NCBI RefSeq assembly: GCF_000226095.1
Contig: NC_016474.1
Location: 620,001 to 684,000 of the forward strand
Length of the DNA stretch: 64,000 nt
Source of the DNA: Thermothelomyces thermophilus ATCC 42464
Taxonomy: Eukaryota; Ascomycota; Sordariomycetes; Sordariales; Chaetomiaceae
Direction: 5' to 3'
Part shown: positions 35,631-55,632 of the stretch, one piece after another
Numbering within the stretch: position 1 is the first letter of the stretch
Layout: every line of letters starts with the position of its first letter
The notes under the pieces: model-generated
Told to the model about the DNA's origin: nothing
What the model saw: the letters and a program-made list of their open reading frames with translations, nothing else
The model's database searches: none
Program-made: the position numbers and the translations under genes

Positions 35631-35970
35631 TGTCACAGGCCTAGGCTCTACCTAGGCTAAATAATACTAGGCTTTACCTAGTAAGGGACTAGACCTACCT
35701 AGCAACAAACCGGACCTACTCGACCTACCTAAGTATATATAATTAGCCTATAAGACGTTTATAGGTCGTTTATAGGGCATATGGCCAAGGCCTAGTTAGG
35801 GCCCGACCTAGAGCCTAACTAGGCCCTACCTAGGTTATATACATATATATTAGTTAAAAGGCACTCCTCTATATAACTCTTATATTCTTCCTCTTTTTAC
35901 TCCCTAAGGTAGTTAAATAGAATATTATATACTTATCTATAGATACTATAAGGCTAATATATTCTATTTT
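35631..35970 (+). repeat. Gyp-A copy 3 5' LTR
   Basis: Starts TGTCACAGGCCTAGGC, the least mutated LTR start of the family. The right end is approximate. Just beyond it, near 35987-36012, is a perfect palindrome ATAACTCCCT-A-AGGGAGTTAT within the leader, kept in altered form in copies 1 and 2. Confidence 0.75.
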
Positions 35971-37496
35971 AACTACCTTCTTACCAGTAATAACTCCCTA
36001 AGGGAGTTATTAGTAATATAGTCATAGTAGATTTAAGAGTATATAGGCCTTTAGGCCTAGTAGAATTATAGGAGCTTATCTACTCCCTTTAAGTAGTAAT
36101 AGAATAGTAGAATACTACGATTAATACCCTCTAGGCATCTTAAACCTAACCTATCCTAACCCCTAAGTTAGCTAGGGTACCCCTTGAAGTTTAGTAGCCG
36201 TAACGGAAGTACCTCCTAACCGGATAACCTTTTAATAGCAAAAAGGAACTCTTTATAGTATAGAAGAGTATAATAGAATATATCCTTATAGCTAATAGAG
36301 ATTTTATCGGCTCTAATCATAACTAATAGGTCTTTATCTAGGGAAACCTTATATATTAGGTATAGATCTAAGTTATAGCCTACTATAAATCTATAGGCCT
36401 AGTAGTTAGATATAACCTAACTTGGTTCCTCTAACACCTCGAGAGTATCTTCTTTAACCCCTATAAGAAGACTATAGCCTTATTAAAATTAGACTTCTTA
36501 TAATAAAGGGATAATAAACTATTCCTTACCTTTATTATTTAGTTTAAAGCTAAGCTATTAATAGTAGGTAGCCTCCTTTAGAACGATAAGATATATATTA
36601 TTAAATTATAATAATATCTCTCTCTAAAACTTAAATATATAATAATTAGATAAGGAATTCCCTAAGATAATTATATAATAGCTAGTAAGATATATTATAA
36701 GATTATTATAGATCTTAAGGCTCTCTAGCTTAGTAATAAATATTAATAGATATAAAGGTAATAGATAGTATCTAAACTATAAAGAGAAAAGGATATAAAA
36801 GAAGATATATTAATAATTAGAATTAACTTATCTTATATTAATCTATAGAGAAAGGGACTTAATAAGAATAGAGTAAGAAGGTATAAGGCTAATACCCCCT
36901 AGGTAAAATAGGTTAGCTAGGAAGTATAATTAGCCTAATAGATAGCTAGAGTATATATCTAGTATAGATAGAAGGGATACTTTATTACTAAATGTAACTT
37001 TACCTTAATTATAACGCTAGTATAATAGAACTTATTAAGAACTAATATTAATACCTTATAGGCTAAGGAATAGGAGGAAAGTAATAACCTACCTAATAAA
37101 GAAGATAAGGAGTAGGGAAAAGAATAGCCCTTAAGTAAAGTCTTATAAGGGGGTTAGAAGACTATAACTATCTAGAAGATAAGTTTATAAAGATTAGTAA
37201 AAGAATAGATAGATCTCCTTTTCTTATCCTAATCTTCCTTAACTTTACCGGCTTTATAAATACTTAAGTAGATAATAGATATTCTAATTATAATACTATT
37301 AGTAAGAAAATATATTAGAAGCTTAAAATTAAATAGATTAGTTTACTTAATATATATACCTTTAAGAGTATAACTAGGTTATAATTAGATTAGAAGATTA
37401 CTTAAATAGCCTATATTATAATAGATACTAATAATTAGGAGAGCTAGGCTATATTCTATATAATTCTAGGACTTATATATAATATTATATTAAGCT

Positions 37497-42943
<5,447 letters not shown>

Positions 42944-43895
42944 ATTATATTAAGCTTCTTATAGGTAAAATACTAGGAAGTTATATTAGATATATATATA
43001 AGTATTCTTAGAATTTAAATAGAATTAAGATTACTTATTTATAAGATCTCTTTATAGCTAAGATAAATATAAATCTCCTAAATTATAAGTATAGTCTTTA
43101 TAGATATAGTATAGAGGGTATAGAAAAAGAAGACTTCTAATACTTTCCTGGTTACTAATATCTAAGAAATAATAATTATCTTAGAATTAAGATATTAATT
43201 TAATGGAGAAGGTATAGGAAATAGGAGTACCTAACCTAAGCCTAATATAAAATTAGAGGTTACCTTATTAAATAAACTTTATAATTTCATTAACCTCTTA
43301 AATAATAAAAAACCTAATAGACTTCCTTCATATTATAATATAGCTAATTATTATATGAAATTAAAAGAAGGCCTATATAGAAAGATTCCTAAGCTCCTAT
43401 AAGGGCCTCTTTATAATATATTATAAGATTATTTATTAGAAGTCCGAAAGTAAGTTATTAACTTATTAGATAAGGGATAGATCTAAGCTAGCTCCTCCTT
43501 AGCTATTACCCTTATCTTCTTAATAAAGAAGATAGATAAAGGATAAAGGTTCTATATTAATTATTAGGTACCAAATAAAATTATAAAATAAGATTAATAC
43601 CCCTTTTTACTTATTAAGAAGATACTTTACTCTTTAGCTAAAGCTAAATAGTTTATAAAGCTAGATATCTAGATAGCCTTCTATTATATCTAGATTATAG
43701 AAGGCTATAAGTATTTAATAGTATTCTAGACCTAGTTTAGCCTTTTTAAATAGCTTATCTATCCCTTTAGACTAATAGATATACCTATAACCTTCTAATA
43801 ATATATAAATAATACTTTTATCCTAATATTTAGAGATTTTATGATAATATACCTTAATAATATCTTAATCTATATATTAGGTAATGAAAAAGTAT

Positions 43896-45564
43896 AATAC
43901 TTTCGCTATAAGGCTTCTCTTATATCTCTATAAATACCCTACCAAAACATACGAAACTACTATGGCTAGAAGGCTCTCGAAAAACGCTATCTAATAGTAC
44001 CAGTTTTAACTATATATAAGCTATTATAGGTATACGACAGGCATCACGAGCGTAGAAGCCGGACCTGACTATAATCCGACCGTACCTTGTACGATCGTCA
44101 AAATTTTCACTATATAGATTACTTAATGCCCTTAAATATAACGTCGATTTAAAGCCTATTACTAAGCTACTAAGTAAGGAGGCCTATAGCTTTGAACTAA
44201 TTAAAGGGGGGCCTATTATAGGCCTACCTTACCCTAGATATTAAAGAACTAAGGGGTCTTATTATATAACTAGTTAACCTTATATTAAGCCTTAAATAGG
44301 GTAAGGTATAATACCTTATTAATAGGCTTTTATAGGGCCTTATAACTATTATTATAGGCTTAGTTCTAAACCTATAGGAACTTATAGCTAAGGAAGTTAA
44401 AAACGGGCTTAAAGAAGCCTTTAAAGCTACCCCTTGCCTTACTTAGGTATAGGTAGCTATAGGCTTATAATAGGGGGGAATAGGCCTTTAAGGAGGCCTA
44501 TCATTAGCTAAGGTAGTATTATTATAGGCCTTATAAGAGGTTATAATATAGAATATAAGCCTATAGGAAGACCTTAAAGCCCGAACCCTAGCTAAGATAA
44601 TCTAAATAGTTAATAGGGCTTCTAGCTACTAAGGAGCTATTATAGCTAAGAAGCTCCTAAGCAGGGATATAATAGTAATCTTTAAGGATAAGGCTATTAA
44701 GGATTAGTATTTGGCTAATAAGCGATAGGTGGTTATAGCCTTTAGAGAGGAGGCTAGGGAGGTTGGTAGGGCCTATATAGTCCTAGTTAAAGGAGTCCGG
44801 AAGGAGGAGCTATAAGGGTAACGTTAGTAAATAAGACTTTAAAGGGGCTATAGGCTTATACTCGATCGAAACGGTCAAGTTCTAGCTACTAAATAGCCTA
44901 TAAAGGAAGTAGGCTATGGTACTTCTAGGCTTATAGGACCTTGAAAAGGCCTAGAAGGCCTATAATAAGGGTATAGTCTAGGATACCTAGGTACTAAATT
45001 ATAAGCCTTATTAGGATGCTCTAAAGCTAAGGTAATACTATAGGTATTAGAGCTTTGGCTATACCTAATAGTACTACTAGTAGCCGGCTTACTATAGCTA
45101 CTATAGTATAAAGGCCTATAGGGAGAGGGGGAAAGCTAAGGAGGCCTAGTACCTTACCTACTTTAACTAACTCCCTTATAAGTATATAGCCTATAGGGGC
45201 CCCTATATAGCCTAGTATAGGGGCTACCTAAAGAAAGTCGAAACCTAGGAGAGGGCTAGGGAGGCCTACTAGGATAGACCCTAAACCTTCTAACTACTAG
45301 AGTAATTATACTAGAAGGTAGCCTTTAAGTTTAGCAGCTAGCTAGAAGACGACGACTACTATTAAACTAGGGCTAAATACCCTTATAGGAGGCCTACCCT
45401 AGCCTAATAGGCGGCTAGGAGTGCCTTATTTAATGCCTAATAGACCTATATCTCCTTTCTATAGCTTAGAACCCCTTCCTTCTTATAACTAGCTAAGGGG
45501 GTAATAGCTATAGAGCCTATTACTATACCTTTATCCTCTACTCTAGCTACCTTAAATATAAATT
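43896..45564 (+). mobile_element. L7: 5' part of a LINE
   Basis: It starts at the common 5' end (CTTCTCTTATATC...) and runs through ORF1 to the start of the endonuclease region, matching 37555-39200 of L6. It stops where the outer end of the Gyp-A copy 4 LTR begins. The left junction lies in the pol region of Gyp-A copy 3. Confidence 0.8.
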
Positions 45565-45896
45565 AAATATAATATATTAGCCTTATAGTATCTATAGATA
45601 AGCGTATAATATTCTATTTAACTACCTTAGAGAGTAAAAAGAGGAAGAATATAAAAGTTATATAAAGGAGTACCTTTTAACTAATATATATATATATAAC
45701 CTAGGTAAGGCCTAATTAGGCTCTAGGTTAGGCCCTAACCAGGCCTTAGCCATATATCTACTAGACAAGTTACAAATAAGTAACAAATGCTCTATAGACC
45801 TATAGGGCAAGGTAGGTAAGGTAGGGTAGGTCTGTTCTATACCTAGGTAAAGCCTAGGCATTATCTAGCCTAGGTATATAGCCTAGGCCTATAATA
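45565..45896 (-). repeat. Gyp-A copy 4 3' LTR
   Basis: 332 bp; the inner end at 45896 reads TATTATAGGCC on the minus strand and follows directly on the polypurine tract. The outer end meets LINE L7. Confidence 0.8.
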
Positions 45897-45914
45897 TCCC
45901 CCCCCTCTTTTTTC
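45897..45914 (-). other. Gyp-A polypurine tract
   Basis: The minus strand reads AAAAAAGAGGGGGGGGAT-like purines immediately before the LTR start. This is the expected plus-strand priming site and fixes the 3' end of the element. Confidence 0.85.
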
Positions 45915-46190
45915 GCGGTTGCCAGGCTAACCTGCCTTATGATATATTATATATATTAGGTATATAAGTAGGTTCTATACCTTCCTCTCTTTATTACTAT
46001 AACAATATAACCTATATATATAATAGTATATTATATATAAATAGGTAGCTATTCGAGTTTAGATAAAACCTATACCTCCTTCCCTTTATTATTAGAATAA
46101 CACGACCTACGTATATAGTAGTAAGTTATATATATAATAAGTAATTTGCCTAGGTCCTATATACTTCCCTACTACCCTCTTCCTAACGCC

Positions 46191-46198
46191 TATAAATA
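46191..46198 (+). promoter_or_regulatory. TATA-like box of the antisense gene in Gyp-A
   Basis: TATAAATA lies 46 bases before the ATG at 46237, followed by a pyrimidine-rich stretch (CCCCCTCTACTTCCCTCCC). The spacing suits a short fungal leader. The AT-rich surroundings make a chance match possible. Confidence 0.4.
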
Positions 46199-46236
46199 CC
46201 CCCTCTACTTCCCTCCCTCTCCTAATTCTCTCTCCT

Positions 46237-47413
46237 ATGACTAATTCTCCTCCTCTTTTATACCTTCTAACTACCTTTGCCTCCTATAACTATACTTATT
46301 ACCTATACCCTTATTATACCTTTAAGTTTCTTTTTTTAAATTAGTATCTATCTAATATATCGATAACTATTAGTTTACTTAGTAATAATAATAATAATTA
46401 TTACCCTAATAATGATAAAAATAAAGATTATTATATAAGTTTTCCCTTACCTATATTGATTTTTAGCTATTATATATATATATATATAAGGTATAAACTA
46501 ACTCTTCATTTTACAGTATAAGAATGTTAACCTCTCCCTTAGTAGGTATACTATTAAAGGTAACTCCTTTAATAAGGAGTTTAAACTATAGCCTAAGAAG
46601 TAGTAATATTACCTACTATATATTAACTAACTTCTAAGAGGTAATAAGGTTAAGTATATCTAGGGTTAGGGCGCTTCTTATATAATGTATTTTAAGAGCT
46701 ATAAAAGCTACGTTTAGGATCTATAGCTCTAGGTTAATAACCATTATATATATATAGGTATTAAGAAAATTATAAGTTATTATAATACTAGTATTACCTT
46801 TGCCTCCCTTACCTTCTATAAGACTACTAACTAAGGTACCTATTATACTATCCTAATACCTAAGTTCCTTACGCTAGTATATTCGTTTTCTATACTCTTT
46901 AAGGCTACCTAGTCTAACTGTTTGCCTAGATAGGCTACCTTTGCCCCTACTTAGGCTATAAATTCTTATCGCTCTAGTAATAACTTTGCCCTAGTTACTA
47001 CTGCCCTTGCCCCTAATACCTCTACCTATTATAGTAATATTATCTAGCCTACTACCACCCCTGACCCTACTTTATAAGCTACTAGGTACCTTATATACTA
47101 TGCTATAACGTAGAACGATAGTATACTATACTAGATATAGTATATAAATAAGAATATATTGACTTTAGTTAACACTAATACTACCTTTATTACCTATATC
47201 CTAGGTACTCTGTTGCCTACTTCCTATACCTGCTCCTATACCTCTATACGCCCTATACCTATATTAATTAACTTCGGCCGTTCCTATACCTACTACTCTT
47301 CCTTGCCTACTAAGTATATAATATGCCTAGTCTGTAACTATAATAACCTTACCCTTGACGCTATAACTATTATTTTAGAGGGGGAGGATGAAGGGGAGGA
47401 GGTTATAAAGTAA
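46237..47413 (+). pseudogene. Antisense, intron-containing unknown gene inside chromovirus Gyp-A
   Basis: ATG at 46237 opens a 66-codon first exon (to 46434) with an Asn run near its end. A predicted 82-nt intron (46435-46516) has branch site CTAAC at 46498-46502 and acceptor TTTTACAG. Its donor now reads ATAAGT where GTAAGT is expected, a change that RIP would make (TG to TA). The second exon (46517-47413) continues in phase 0 for 298 codons to a TAG. In total about 364 residues, with roughly twenty in-frame stops, all TAA or TAG, that fit mutated Gln/Trp codons. The last 84 codons are stop-free. The C-terminus holds a Tyr/Ser-rich stretch, a Cys-x-x-Cys (CLVC) and an acidic tail (EGEDEGEE). 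The protein family is not recognised. It lies opposite to gag-pol. Alternatives: a captured host gene or an accessory retrotransposon ORF. Confidence 0.65.
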
Positions 47414-47639
47414 GCGTATTATATACTAGTTAGTATATTTATTTTATTTTTATAATTAGACTATCTCTATAGATACTATCTATAATATAGTTATAACGTA
47501 TCTATAACGTGACCACGATATACCTACCGCTTATTTGCCCTAGGTTTGCCTACCTGTATAAAAATTTTATATCGTTTGCTTTTATACTTTCCCCTACCTC
47601 CTGTTTATAATTGGTCTATCATTATAATATACATCTCCT

Positions 47640-50304
47640 TACTCCTATTTAAATATATTAAATGCCTTAGTGTTTTCTAGATTTTCTAATGGTTCCTGAG
47701 TTAGGGTGTTATATCCCTTCTATTTTACTAGTATATCGTATTGATTTCCTCTTCCCCTTATATTCCTAGTTATAAGGATCGCTTCTACTTTGTATTCTTC
47801 CTATAGTAGTCCCTCTTAGGAGAGTTCTAATACTAGGTCTAGTTAGAAATCTAATATACGTTATAAAGGTAGTAGGTCGGATATAGTATACTTGACAAGG
47901 TTAATATAAAAGGTAGGGTAAAGGCTATAAGGAATATTTAGAGTTACTATTAGTAGTATTGATACTATAATTACTTTATACTTAGCGTTAACCTAGTTAA
48001 GTTTATAGCTAGGGTAGTTAGTCTTAATATTATATAAGGATAGCTATACTTTATCCCTTACTTTGAATCTCTTAGCTAGGTATTAAGAACGATTAGCGTT
48101 TTCTTACTAATATTATTATATATATATAACAGTAGCCTAGGTCTATTTTATACCTTTTCTAAAGTAATATAAGAAATTAGTAGCTCTTCCTTATAGGGTT
48201 AAGGTAGGAGCGTCTAGTTGGTTAGTAAACTATATTAGGCTTATATTATAACTATAAAGGAGGTAGCTTATACTTGTCCTAGTTACTATCAAGTTATAGC
48301 TATTAATTATAAACTAGTATATAGGTAGATATTTAGGCTAGTTATACTAGGTAAAGGAAACTATAATCTATAGGATAGTCTATACCTCCTAATTTATATA
48401 TTCTATACCTCTATCTATCCACGGATAATAGGCTATTAATAATAGCTATTCGATTCTAATAGTCTTATAGAGAGTAGTCTAAAACTAGCTAAGCTAGTCT
48501 AAACCGCGATTAGTAATAATTTATATTAGAAATCCGTAAAACCGCTACTATACGTCCTAGAACCGGAGTATATATATCTCGGCTCCTATTAAGGATATAG
48601 CTTTAAGCTAGACGTACTTCGACAGCCGGTTGGTAATTACTATAAGGTACTAGGGTAAATTCTTATCTCGTATAGAGAGATCGATTATAAAATTAATAAA
48701 AATCTATTTCTAGAAGTAGTTAGCGATAGGTAGGGGCTAAAGGAGACCTTATTATAGTTAATGTAAAACCTTGGCCCTTCGACACGTATAATAGTTCCTT
48801 ATAAATCTCTTTACGTCTAGGGATATAAAGTCCTAATAGTAGTCCTATTAGAGTATTTTAAATAATTCGTTCCTCCCTAGGTAGCCTAATATAGGGGAGT
48901 TATAGATATATTAAAGAATGATAGTTATAAGTAGTTCTTATATAAGAAGCTAAAGTCTACCTTAGAACTAGAGGGTACCTTATATATTAAGGGAGTAATC
49001 CATAATCTAGGTCTATACTATATTTACTTCCTTCGGAAATTTCTAGGCTCTATCTTAGATAGCCTAGAGCTAATATATATAATGTTTATCTTTAATAACT
49101 CCCTTATCTTATAAGGCTATAAGCTATCTATCTATAAAAATAATACTCCCCTTTAGTAAATAGGATACCTTAGATAATATTAAGGTACCTATTATATCTA
49201 TCTAGATGGTAGGAAGGAGTTATATTATATACTATATATCCTTAGGATAATCTCATTTATAGTAAGATAGGGTGTCTAGATAGGAAGCTTATAATCCTAG
49301 TTAGTAATAAAGTTTAAAGTTAAAGAAGGAAAGTACTTTGGCCTATTAAGCTTATTATTTATTAATTAAATAAGGCTAAGAGAAGTACCTAAGGTTTTTA
49401 TAGTTAGTTAGGATCTAAACGGGGGTAATAATATTATAATGCTCGGCTAACTAGGCCTTTAGGTGTAAGATAATTATAAATAGTTCCTTATTATAGATCG
49501 TATAGTTCTATTTAGCTAGGGATAGTTTTATAGAATAGTAGGCTATAGGATATAAGACCTTATCTTCTCCCTATTAGGATAAGTACCTTTCTAATACTAT
49601 CTTAGAGTAATCTACCTTAAGTACTATCTTCTATTAAAGATCCTATTATACTAGGATAGGTTCCGATATAAAAGCTATCTTAAGAGCTTTAAAGGCCTCT
49701 TATTCCTTAGTTCCCTATTAAAATAGGGTATTTTTATAAGTTAACTATATTAAGGGTATAATTAACTTAGAGAAGTTAAGGATAAAGTCTTAGTAGAAGT
49801 TTATAAACCTTAGGAAACTCTATATTCCTTAAACCTTATATAGTACCTCCTACTTATAGATAGTAGCTAGCTTTTTAGGGTCTAGGTAAATCTAAGCCTC
49901 TACCTCTATAATAAGATATTTAACTTCTTTTATAGTAAATATATACTTCTTAAGATCTAATATAAGTCCTACCTTCTATAGCCTTTAGAGTATATCCCTT
50001 ACCTACCTTATATAATCTTTCTTATTACCTAAAGTATAGATTAAGATATTATTAAGGTATATTATTATAAAGTCTCTAAGTATTAGGCTAAGAGTATTAT
50101 TAATATATTATTAAAAAGTTATAGGTATACCTATAAGTCTAAAAGGGTAGATAATTAAAGAGGTTAAACTAGGTCTAGAATATTATCAAATACTTATAGC
50201 CCTCTATAATCTAAATATAGTAGAAGGCTACCTAGATATTAAGCTTTATAAACCACTTAGCTCTAGCTAAAGAGTAAGGTATCTCCTTAATAAGTAAAAG
50301 GGGG
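47640..50304 (-). pseudogene. Gyp-A pol remnant: RT, RNase H, integrase and chromodomain
   Basis: Read leftward through RIP stops, the RT core is at 50041-50066. An RNase H-like stretch follows at about 49750-49350 and an integrase-like region at 49000-47830. The chromodomain at about 47800-47660 has a block like GRGNQYDILVKWKGYN followed by TQEPLENL. A C-terminal chromodomain defines the chromovirus branch of Ty3/gypsy, whose members tend to target heterochromatin. The corresponding block in Gyp-A copy 5 is at 54160-54305. Confidence 0.75.
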
Positions 50305-53295: not shown

Positions 53296-54336
53296 AAGCT
53301 TTCTTTTTTAATTATTAGAGTAGGTTGGTTAAGTATATCTAATTTGAGGTTATATCCTTAATAGGAGCTAAGGTATATATATTCTTATTCTAGGATATAT
53401 AATAGTAGTTTTATAGATTTCTACTATAAATAATTACTAATTATAGTTTATTTTAGCTTAGTTTTAGATTACTCTTTATAAGATTATTAGAATTAAATAG
53501 CTACTATTAATAGCCTATTACCTATAGATAGATAGAGGTATAGAATATATAAATTAGGAAATATAGACTATCCTATAGATTATAATTTCCTTTACTTTAT
53601 ATAACTAGCCTAAATACCTATTAATATATTAGCTTATAATTAATAACCATAATTTAGTAACTAGGATAAGTATAAGCTACCTTCTCTATAACTATAATAT
53701 AAGCTTTATATAATTTGTTAACCTATTAAATACTCTCTTACTTTGACCTTATAAGGAAGAGTTACTAGGTTCCTATACTATCTAAGAGAAGGTATAGAAT
53801 AGACCTAGGCTATTATTATATATATATAGTAATATTAGTAAGCAACTGCTAATTATTCTTAATACCTAGTTAAGAAGTTTAAAGTTCTTAAGAGATAAAA
53901 TATAATTATCCTTATATAATATTAAGACTAACTATCCTAGTTATAAACTTAACTAGGTTAATATAAAGTATAAAGTAATTATAATATTAATATTACTAAT
54001 AAAAAGTCTAGATATTCTTTATAGCCTTTACCTTATAATTTATATTAACCTTATTAAGTCTACTATATCTAACCTACTACCTTTATAATATATATTAGAT
54101 TCCTAACTAGATCTAGTACTAGTTAGAACTCTACTAAGAGAGACTACTATTAGAAGAATATAAAGTAAAAGCAATACTTATACCTAGGAATATAAGGGGG
54201 GGAGGAAATCGATATAATATACTAGTAAAATAGAGGAGATATAATATACTAACCTAGGAGCTATTAGAAACTCTAGAGAATACTAGGGCGCTTAACACTT
54301 TTAAGTAAGATTAGGGAGATATATATTATAATAATA

Positions 54337-55195
54337 CCTAGGGGCTTCCTAGGTCCCTGCAAGGGCTCTTATCTAATAGGCCTATAATAGGCTAAGCCAG
54401 AGGTTCTAGAAACGAAAGGCCAGGGCAAGGGGCTAGGAGCCGAAGCCTATAGCCCTAGAGGTAGCAAGGTCGACAGTCCGGCAGTAGGTTTAGGAGAGCT
54501 ATAGAAGGGGTCTACCCCCTCCATAGACCTTATAAAGGAGGCTATAGGCTATAGAACTAGCTATAGTAGCTAGCTAGAGCAATCATTAGAGGGCTGACCA
54601 AGCCGGCAGGAGGATATAGCACGTATTAGACAAGGACCCCCTGTGTCTAGTTTTTACAGGGGAAGGCCTATAAAGGTACTAGGGCCTAATGAAGGCCTAG
54701 AGCTCCCTACTAATATAGGCCTATATAGGGGCTATTAGCCTCTATAACTTCCTTTTTAAGGTTTAAGTCCTAGGGGTTAGTACCCCTTACTATATCTATA
54801 GTTAGGGGAAGGAGACTATAGAGCACCTAGTTATATAGTATTTAAACTTACTAAGAAGCTAAACGTAGGAATCCTAGGAAATACGGTCGTAAAGGGACCT
54901 AGACCTTATTTTATAGGGTATAGGGGCCTATAACTATTGTTTAGCAAGGAGGGTTCTATAGTGGCTAATAGACCTAAGGAGGCTTCCGGAATACTGCCTT
55001 ATAAGGAGGCTAGACTAGGAGGTAAGGCCTCTATAGGGCTATTCTAGCTACTTCTCCTTTTCTTTATAGTATATTAGTATTCTAGATTAGGTGTTAAAGG
55101 TAGGATAGAGGTTTTTATCTGACCTATTAGGTATAGTTTCCTTTATATATAACTAGAGAGGCTCTAGTATATTTATTAGTATAATAGTATAGGAC

Positions 55196-55230
<35 letters not shown>

Positions 55231-55242
55231 TAATAATAGACT
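54337..55242 (+). mobile_element. L9: LINE 3' fragment with TAA tail
   Basis: 5'-truncated copy matching the last 0.9 kb of L6, ending in a TAA tail at about 55196-55240. Flanking ATAATA-type sequence may be the target duplication but cannot be separated from the tail. It inserted between the chromodomain and the antisense gene of Gyp-A copy 5. Confidence 0.8.
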
Positions 55243-55398
55243 AGTTATAAGTAGGATATAGGGAAGGAATTATAAGTAAACAATTTAAAATTTTTATATA
55301 GATAGGTAAACCTAGGGTAAATAAGTAATAGCTATATTATAGATATACTAATAAACTAATTACAATAATGAAAATATAATAACTAGGATATTATATAC

Positions 55399-55620
55399 TT
55401 ACTTTATAAGCTCCTCCTTATACTCTTCCTCTTCCTCTTCCTCTTTCTCTAAAACGTTAATTAGGGCTAGGAGGGCAAGCTCCTTATACTTATATACTAG
55501 GTATATTATATACTTAGTAGGCAAGGAAGAGTAGCAAGTACAAGAACAGCTAAAGTTAATTTGTATAAGTATAGGATATATAGAGGTATATAAATAGGCC
55601 TAGGAAGTAGATAAGGGCAT
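55399..55620 (-). pseudogene. Antisense gene of Gyp-A, second copy, C-terminal part only
   Basis: On the minus strand the last ~75 codons align with the end of the frame at 46237-47413: both share the string SSLPTKYII, and both end with an acidic tail, here longer (EKEEEEEEE) and closing with ELIK before a TAA stop at 55399-55401. The frame is open for most of its length. Conservation of protein ending and stop position in two separately mutated copies supports real coding origin. It is cut upstream by the Fot1-like element at 55633. Confidence 0.65.
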
Positions 55621-55632
55621 CCCTAAGATATA

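Follow-up and report, generated by a model that had tools for sequence, protein, structure and literature searches.

The antisense gene of HTLV, HBZ, is spliced and encodes a bZIP product. An antisense promoter in the 3' LTR of HTLV is described in the accessible text of PMC7264820. Antisense accessory genes are also known from LTR elements of plants and of Botrytis, with no function established for them in the accessible parts of the sources (PMC7264820, PMC4227169, PMC8365987, PMC11963269). In plants, such frames are carried by Grande (gene23), RIRE2, Retand (with TRP28) and PvRetro13 (PMC7264820, PMC11963269), and gene23 of Grande is reported to have its own promoter and a nuclear product (PMC7264820). 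A fungal case is brtn, an additional antisense gene of the Boty-like elements of Botrytis cinerea, reported in 2011 by Zhao et al. (PMC7264820, PMC4227169, PMC8365987). The gag-pol of Boty carries a chromodomain (PMC4227169), and Boty appears in a list of elements whose antisense frames lie between pol and the 3' LTR (PMC7264820); the last Botrytis annotation used by PMC8365987 does not contain brtn. The word 'intron' is absent from PMC7264820 and PMC11963269, and in their accessible parts splicing is mentioned only for sense env-like genes.

In this study we describe an antisense frame in the genome of Thermothelomyces thermophilus ATCC 42464 (38.74 Mb in seven contigs). The window, i.e. the whole stretch of 64,000 nucleotides that was analysed, lies on contig 3. 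The frame belongs to an LTR chromovirus, where it sits between pol and the polypurine tract on the strand opposite to gag-pol. With a probability of roughly 0.7 we take it to be an accessory, protein-coding antisense gene of this element, with its own TATA promoter, an 82-nt intron and a fast-evolving regulator of about 325 residues as its product; we infer its transcription, splicing, start and function. A sequence-only reading of the window had named no described fungal case with an intron. Given brtn, this fails as far as it concerns antisense genes as such, by the accessible accounts of brtn; in the literature searched, which lay mostly outside subscription journals, we recognised no description of an intron in such a fungal antisense gene.

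The host element and its families

By its sequence the host is an LTR chromovirus of the Ty3/gypsy type. Its length of about 7.25 kb is taken from L061, the sole copy read end to end. There a 329-bp LTR pair is flanked by GGGAT, a 5-bp target duplication (checked in this one copy), and the two LTRs are set apart by 33 transitions and no transversion, so that repeat-induced point mutation (RIP) alone seems to account for their change since insertion. In the window the 3' LTR occupies 45568-45896 on the minus strand (the homology of the copies mostly begins at 45554-45570), and the adjoining polypurine tract was read in the sequence at 45898-45913, likewise on the minus strand. Pol runs on this strand as well, with RNase H (49358-49708; PF17919 at E 5.9e-15, PF17917 at E 8.4e-10) followed by a putative integrase zinc-binding domain (48770-48928; PF17921 at E 0.0032, a match below the curated cut-off). 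At the C-terminus of pol stands a chromodomain (47651-47800, minus strand; limits set by eye from the motif), which the Pfam profile Chromo (PF00385) matched in 3 of 17 copies with a best E of 0.0023. In pol, the reverse transcriptase itself was not matched. At about 50308 the element is broken by a LINE-like repeat, a label that rests on an RVT_1 match (E 1.9e-14) in a sister copy at 40401-41900. The composition around the locus of the antisense frame is AT-rich.

Related pieces are found elsewhere in the window. A second element of the same kind lies at 53331-55632; its pol runs on the plus strand and is 82% identical over 47617-48619. A LINE-like repeat at 54337-55229 interrupts this element directly behind pol, at almost the position seen in the copy L070, and the C-terminal part of its antisense frame, together with the pol end, is found at 55230-55632 on the minus strand (69% identity to 47195-47625). 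On the plus strand, 35637-37490 and 42938-43896 match the 5' half of the element and apparently belong to a further copy, divided by a LINE-like repeat at 37554-42739. The long (TAA)n array that ends such a repeat at 42719-42950 is open in several frames by repetition only.

The position between the chromodomain and the polypurine tract and 3' LTR, claimed from the window, is borne out by the genome. Judged by coordinates, the C-terminus of the antisense frame lies on the other strand beside at least 84 of 91 pol 3' ends, and among the matches listed the distance between the two at these 84 ends is 132-531 bp (median 151). Two further pol ends have the frame by DNA, L064 up to about 47308 and without its last ~105 bases, L059 with the whole of exon 2, which brings the count to at least 86 of 91. 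The 91 ends were chosen by hand from 115 pol matches; of the 24 short or second pieces left out, some adjoin antisense matches too. Counted among the antisense matches listed, the figure of 84 is a lower bound. At L070 and L072 a LINE-like insertion directly after pol cuts the element; L071 is broken at about 47324 and L073 ends at about 47395. At L074 (L074:225-345; C6:806400-808200) pol joins the LTR directly, with no antisense gene and no polypurine tract visible at the junction inspected, which we read as a deletion. By eye, the LTR of L074 appears less RIP-mutated than other LTRs. The pol match C1:4557966 was considered as a divergent family free of the frame and was rejected; it belongs to the same family and carries a LINE-like insertion. 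A search of this genome for relatives lacking the frame found no intact lineage of that kind among the 91 pol ends. Judged by these copies, a ~7.25-kb LTR chromovirus family of T. thermophilus carries the antisense frame as a constant component.

All 30 copies tested look RIP-mutated, with TpA/ApT values of 1.74-2.09 in their cores. RIP yields transitions only and leaves differences between purines and pyrimidines unaffected. Because every copy tested is mutated in this way, we tested coding by purine/pyrimidine differences per codon position. For exon 2 we compared four families: A (the window type, 28 copies), B (7), C (2) and D (1); L062-L069, candidates for extra families, proved to be of A or B type, or A-like and older. 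The antisense frame stands at the same place in all four families and varies together with the LTR. Between A and B, pol at 47601-48913 shows 0 purine/pyrimidine differences in 1,309 positions, exon 2 shows 65 in 880, and 45568-46190 shows 40 in 463; the last A-B difference before pol is at 47570. Since the same 3' part of pol is joined to a diverged antisense-plus-LTR part in A and B, the cassette looks exchanged as a unit, which indicates that these families are chimeric elements. Most simply, the exchange would have come about by recombination or template switching near the end of pol.

Putative promoter, start and intron

The TATA-like box noted in the sequence-only reading is present as TATAAATA at 46191-46198 on the plus strand and is followed by a CT-rich tract. 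It is kept in 28 of 30 A copies and in the 6 of 6 B copies shown, and both C copies have near forms. The start that the same reading had placed at ATG 46237 had to be given up. The window does have an ATG there, but only 1 of 30 copies shares it (28 read ATA), and the stretch 46237-46345 has indels of 1-4, 9 and 11 nt in A, B and C, with indels of 1-3 nt even within A. As the ATG is rare and the indels break the frame, we place the likely start at 46357 and regard the stretch before it (46199-46356, plus strand) as a probable leader, to which the ATG at 46237 probably belongs. Of 36 copies, one of B and one of C read ATG at 46357 and the other 34 read ATA; this position is the likelier of the two candidate starts.

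From this start, the likely coding part of exon 1 comprises 26 codons (46357-46434, plus strand). The stretch 46346-46434 is free of indels in 12 of 14 copies compared (L054 and L058 have one each), and 46380-46434 shows 0 purine/pyrimidine differences in 54 positions between A and B and 1 in 54 between A and C. Two open runs of 67 and 58 codons in the exon-1 frame together reach upstream of 46237 and through the intron; exceeding the exon on both sides, they reflect the pyrimidine-rich composition as much as coding, and we dropped them as coding evidence.

The claim of an in-phase 82-nt intron stands in part. The window has it at 46435-46516 on the plus strand, in phase 0, with a branch-like ACTAAC at 46497-46502 and the acceptor ACAG at 46513-46516. 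A GT donor, however, is absent in all 30 copies, where the first donor base is A throughout, and ACAG is almost confined to the window copy: C at 46514 occurs in 1 of 30 copies, the final G in 20 of 30. RIP could explain both the non-GT donor and the altered acceptors, which is not proof. Column counts give at least 20 of 30 A copies with ACTAAC intact; of the B copies 2 of 6 show CTAAC, and the C copies do not. Between A and B, and likewise between A and C, no purine/pyrimidine difference falls in the first six bases of the intron (0 of 6 each). The middle of the intron, with 5 differences in 46 (A-B) and 7 in 46 (A-C), is only slightly more diverged than exon 2 past its first 60 bases (60 in 820 and 113 in 823), and these first 60 bases (5 in 60 and 6 in 60) are no better kept than the remaining exon. 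The segment from branch to acceptor, with 4 in 23 and 8 in 24, is among the most diverged parts. Hence the intron is set apart mainly by this divergence and by its indels, which are of 1, 2 and 4 nt between families.

That the intron persists in the element, as had been proposed, agrees with the alignment, in which none of the 30 A copies has a gap in the donor columns. The annotated gene model MYCTH_93007 maps onto copy L066 with the strand, frame and acceptor of the antisense frame; it also steps over RIP stops as introns and is hence a prediction only, not evidence of splicing. Splicing of the 82-nt intron on the antisense strand is predicted. In the mechanism that we propose, the TATA promoter just inside the 3' LTR would drive a transcript antisense to gag-pol, this transcript would lose its one intron, and a fast-evolving protein of about 325 residues would be made. 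Splicing would be confined to the antisense transcript, so that the genomic RNA would retain the intron through every copying cycle.

Coding tests of exon 2

Exon 2 (46517-47413, plus strand) comprises 298 codons and a stop, and 28 of 30 copies have exactly 894 nt. The acidic C-terminus pointed out in the sequence-only reading is read in the window, where the frame ends with the stop at 47411-47413. Stop-free stretches of at least 110 codons occur in 3 of 30 loci (119, 130 and 115 codons), and that of 130 codons, in L027, overlaps the exon-1 region. Per-frame stop counts in single copies did not single out the antisense frame, and columns with stops in at least 95% of the copies numbered 12, versus 8 in two other frames; with RIP saturated, such counts do not set the frame apart, and both gave way to purine/pyrimidine differences. 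Four stop columns of exon 2 are fixed in 43 of 43 aligned copies. Of the pyrimidine-purine columns, 35% are fixed as TA in 46517-47000 and 10% in 47000-47413, the range being 10-35% across the LTR, exon-2 and pol stretches tested. The fixed stop columns may come from local RIP saturation; an ancestral stop is compatible with them as well.

At codon positions 1, 2 and 3 of exon 2, the purine/pyrimidine differences, which RIP leaves untouched, number 32, 26 and 53 between A and C (p 0.0005), 19, 19 and 39 between B and C (p 0.0008) and 36, 26 and 45 between C and D (p 0.04). The corresponding counts for A-B (17, 16 and 22; p 0.3), A-D (18, 14 and 20; p 0.45) and B-D (28, 19 and 28; p 0.45) are not significant. 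A third-position excess is found in three of the six comparisons, all three of which involve C and hence are not independent; a separate signal comes from within family A, where variable sites number 12, 16 and 33. Position 2 is lowest, or at most 0.1 percentage point from position 1, in 6 of 6 comparisons. Where it is seen, in the pairs that include family C and inside A, this excess supports coding. The positive control, pol, gives 5, 4 and 30 by phase between A and C, with the excess at pol's own third position, and the LTR with spacer (45568-46190) gives 32, 27 and 23. Taken by sequence comparison, protein-level constraint on the antisense frame is present but much weaker than on pol.

The lengths of the indels point in the same direction. 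Between families, those in exon 2 are of 9, 15, 12 and 3 nt in B and of 9 and 9 nt in C, all multiples of three; downstream of the exon they are of 1, 2, 4, 6, 23 and 33 nt. Exceptions are L041 and L069, with exon-2 indels of 1, 2 or 4 nt; a 17-nt difference at the end of L067 is a product of the slice taken and not an indel. Among all six frames over 45568-48904 (28 copies), the longest nearly stop-free run is the last 90 codons of exon 2, and the longest such run outside the exon frames of the antisense strand has 46 codons. These last 90 codons, or the part of them present, are open in 39 of 43 copies. It is exon 2 that carries the coding case, and by these comparisons the antisense frame is very likely protein-coding.

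Alternative explanations and comparison with known systems

An accessory protein from the antisense strand is the best-supported reading of the sequence data, and within the searches made this protein is an orphan. Six annotated T. thermophilus proteins match the frame (MYCTH_93007, 96070, 96005, 94694, 2121898 and 2127585), and the sole match from elsewhere in the protein searches is an 84-residue protein on a 1,043-bp contig; these searches gave no named relative outside T. thermophilus and no Botrytis protein. Viral contigs and plasmids held no relative. Pfam lent no support (one match at E 0.15 in 1 of 28 copies), and the best PDB match, to fimbrial chains at E 0.031, was rejected as being without support. 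With E values up to 10 allowed, none of 28 copies matched Transposase 28 (PF04195) or SMC, and bZIP gave no match either, in searches whose sensitivity is lowered by RIP (the chromodomain itself was matched in 3 of 17 copies). The predicted fold of the open C-terminal segment is not confident (mean pLDDT 45.9). By analogy with plant antisense genes such as Grande gene23 and with retroviral antisense genes, the likeliest role of the protein would be that of a regulator of the element, possibly nuclear or RNA-bound and acting on the element's own expression or integration; taken by itself this role is a tentative assignment, with the odds somewhat against it. More speculative, and in our view rather doubtful, is the idea that a self-contained cassette of promoter, intron and orphan fast-evolving protein is traded with the 3' LTR among fungal chromoviruses because the protein counters host silencing or limits competing copies. 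If this were true, the frame would correspond, on the fungal side, to the regulators that retroviruses encode in spliced antisense genes.

The antisense unit might work as RNA only, a TATA-driven transcript tuning or silencing the sense genomic RNA with no protein involved. The conserved TATA box would fit such a role, as would the lack of a domain and of a confident fold in our searches, and noncoding antisense transcripts are described for other retroelements (PMC7264820, section 8, in its accessible text). However, indels that keep the frame in exon 2, a third-position excess and a shared stop are not what one would expect of a noncoding RNA, and we consider this explanation unlikely.

The sequence-only reading had also thought of a captured host gene, and for this we obtained no support. 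The protein matches are T. thermophilus gene models and the one 84-residue protein on its 1,043-bp contig, with no host or other-fungus relative in the protein searches, and among the genome matches listed 84 pol ends have an antisense match beside them. Capture of a host gene in antisense orientation would account for the gene-like anatomy, with promoter and intron as in a captured genomic segment, and it could be too old to see; even so, we regard it as quite improbable.

Little credence can be given to a chance opening of the frame, be it from composition plus RIP or from selection on a sense-strand frame. The 90-codon run of exon 2 exceeds that of every other frame, and the third-position excess falls in the phase of the antisense frame; in each of the six comparisons, position 2 has the lowest value or one no more than 0.1 percentage point from that of position 1. 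Stop-majority columns number 31 in the minus frame of this phase and 18 in the antisense frame. In favour of a chance opening, the plus strand is pyrimidine-rich at the locus, the exon-1 frame is open even outside the exon, and in single copies another plus frame is as poor in stops. As a last alternative, the frame would be a transposon of its own that landed by chance at one site before the family was amplified. The many LINE-like insertions in this region, of which three lie directly behind pol, would be in keeping with that. We regard it as highly improbable: none of the 25 longest of 47 inverted-repeat pairs links the two outer edges of the frame, and in four families the frame occupies one and the same position and diverges along with the LTR.

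If the antisense frame is an accessory protein-coding gene, its intron, surviving reverse transcription on the opposite strand, makes a clean test case with the prediction that antisense transcripts are spliced and genomic RNA is not. Counting purine/pyrimidine differences by codon position moreover allows mutated genes to be tested in a genome subject to RIP, with no need to reconstruct them.

The layout of the frame is comparable to that of the antisense genes of some retroviruses and of Grande gene23. Like the antisense gene of HTLV, which is spliced, it lies near the 3' LTR; in T. thermophilus, in contrast, the promoter would stand within the element at a distance of about 300 bp from the LTR. 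Neither bZIP nor any other domain was matched, in copies where RIP lowers the sensitivity of such searches. Crapaud of Podospora anserina resembles the T. thermophilus element in being an LTR element of a RIP-affected ascomycete whose pol ends in a chromodomain; it is drawn with gag and pol frames only, and the word 'antisense' is absent from the accessible text of PMC10787394. The plant frames, as far as the accessible accounts describe them, likewise run antisense between pol and the 3' LTR and are present in most copies. The domain that goes with TRP28 of Retand is Transposase 28; the T. thermophilus frame gave no Transposase 28 or SMC match, again at a sensitivity lowered by RIP. Closest is brtn of Boty, according to its accessible descriptions also an antisense gene in a fungal element with a chromodomain gag-pol. 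Compared by description only, the T. thermophilus case differs from brtn in that its copies (30 tested) are RIP-mutated and its cassettes occur in four families. In conclusion, antisense genes in fungal chromoviruses are already known from the accessible accounts of Boty brtn, and the T. thermophilus frame adds a variant from a strongly RIP-affected fungal lineage, in which a conserved promoter, a putative intron and an apparent exchange of modules can be read from one genome.
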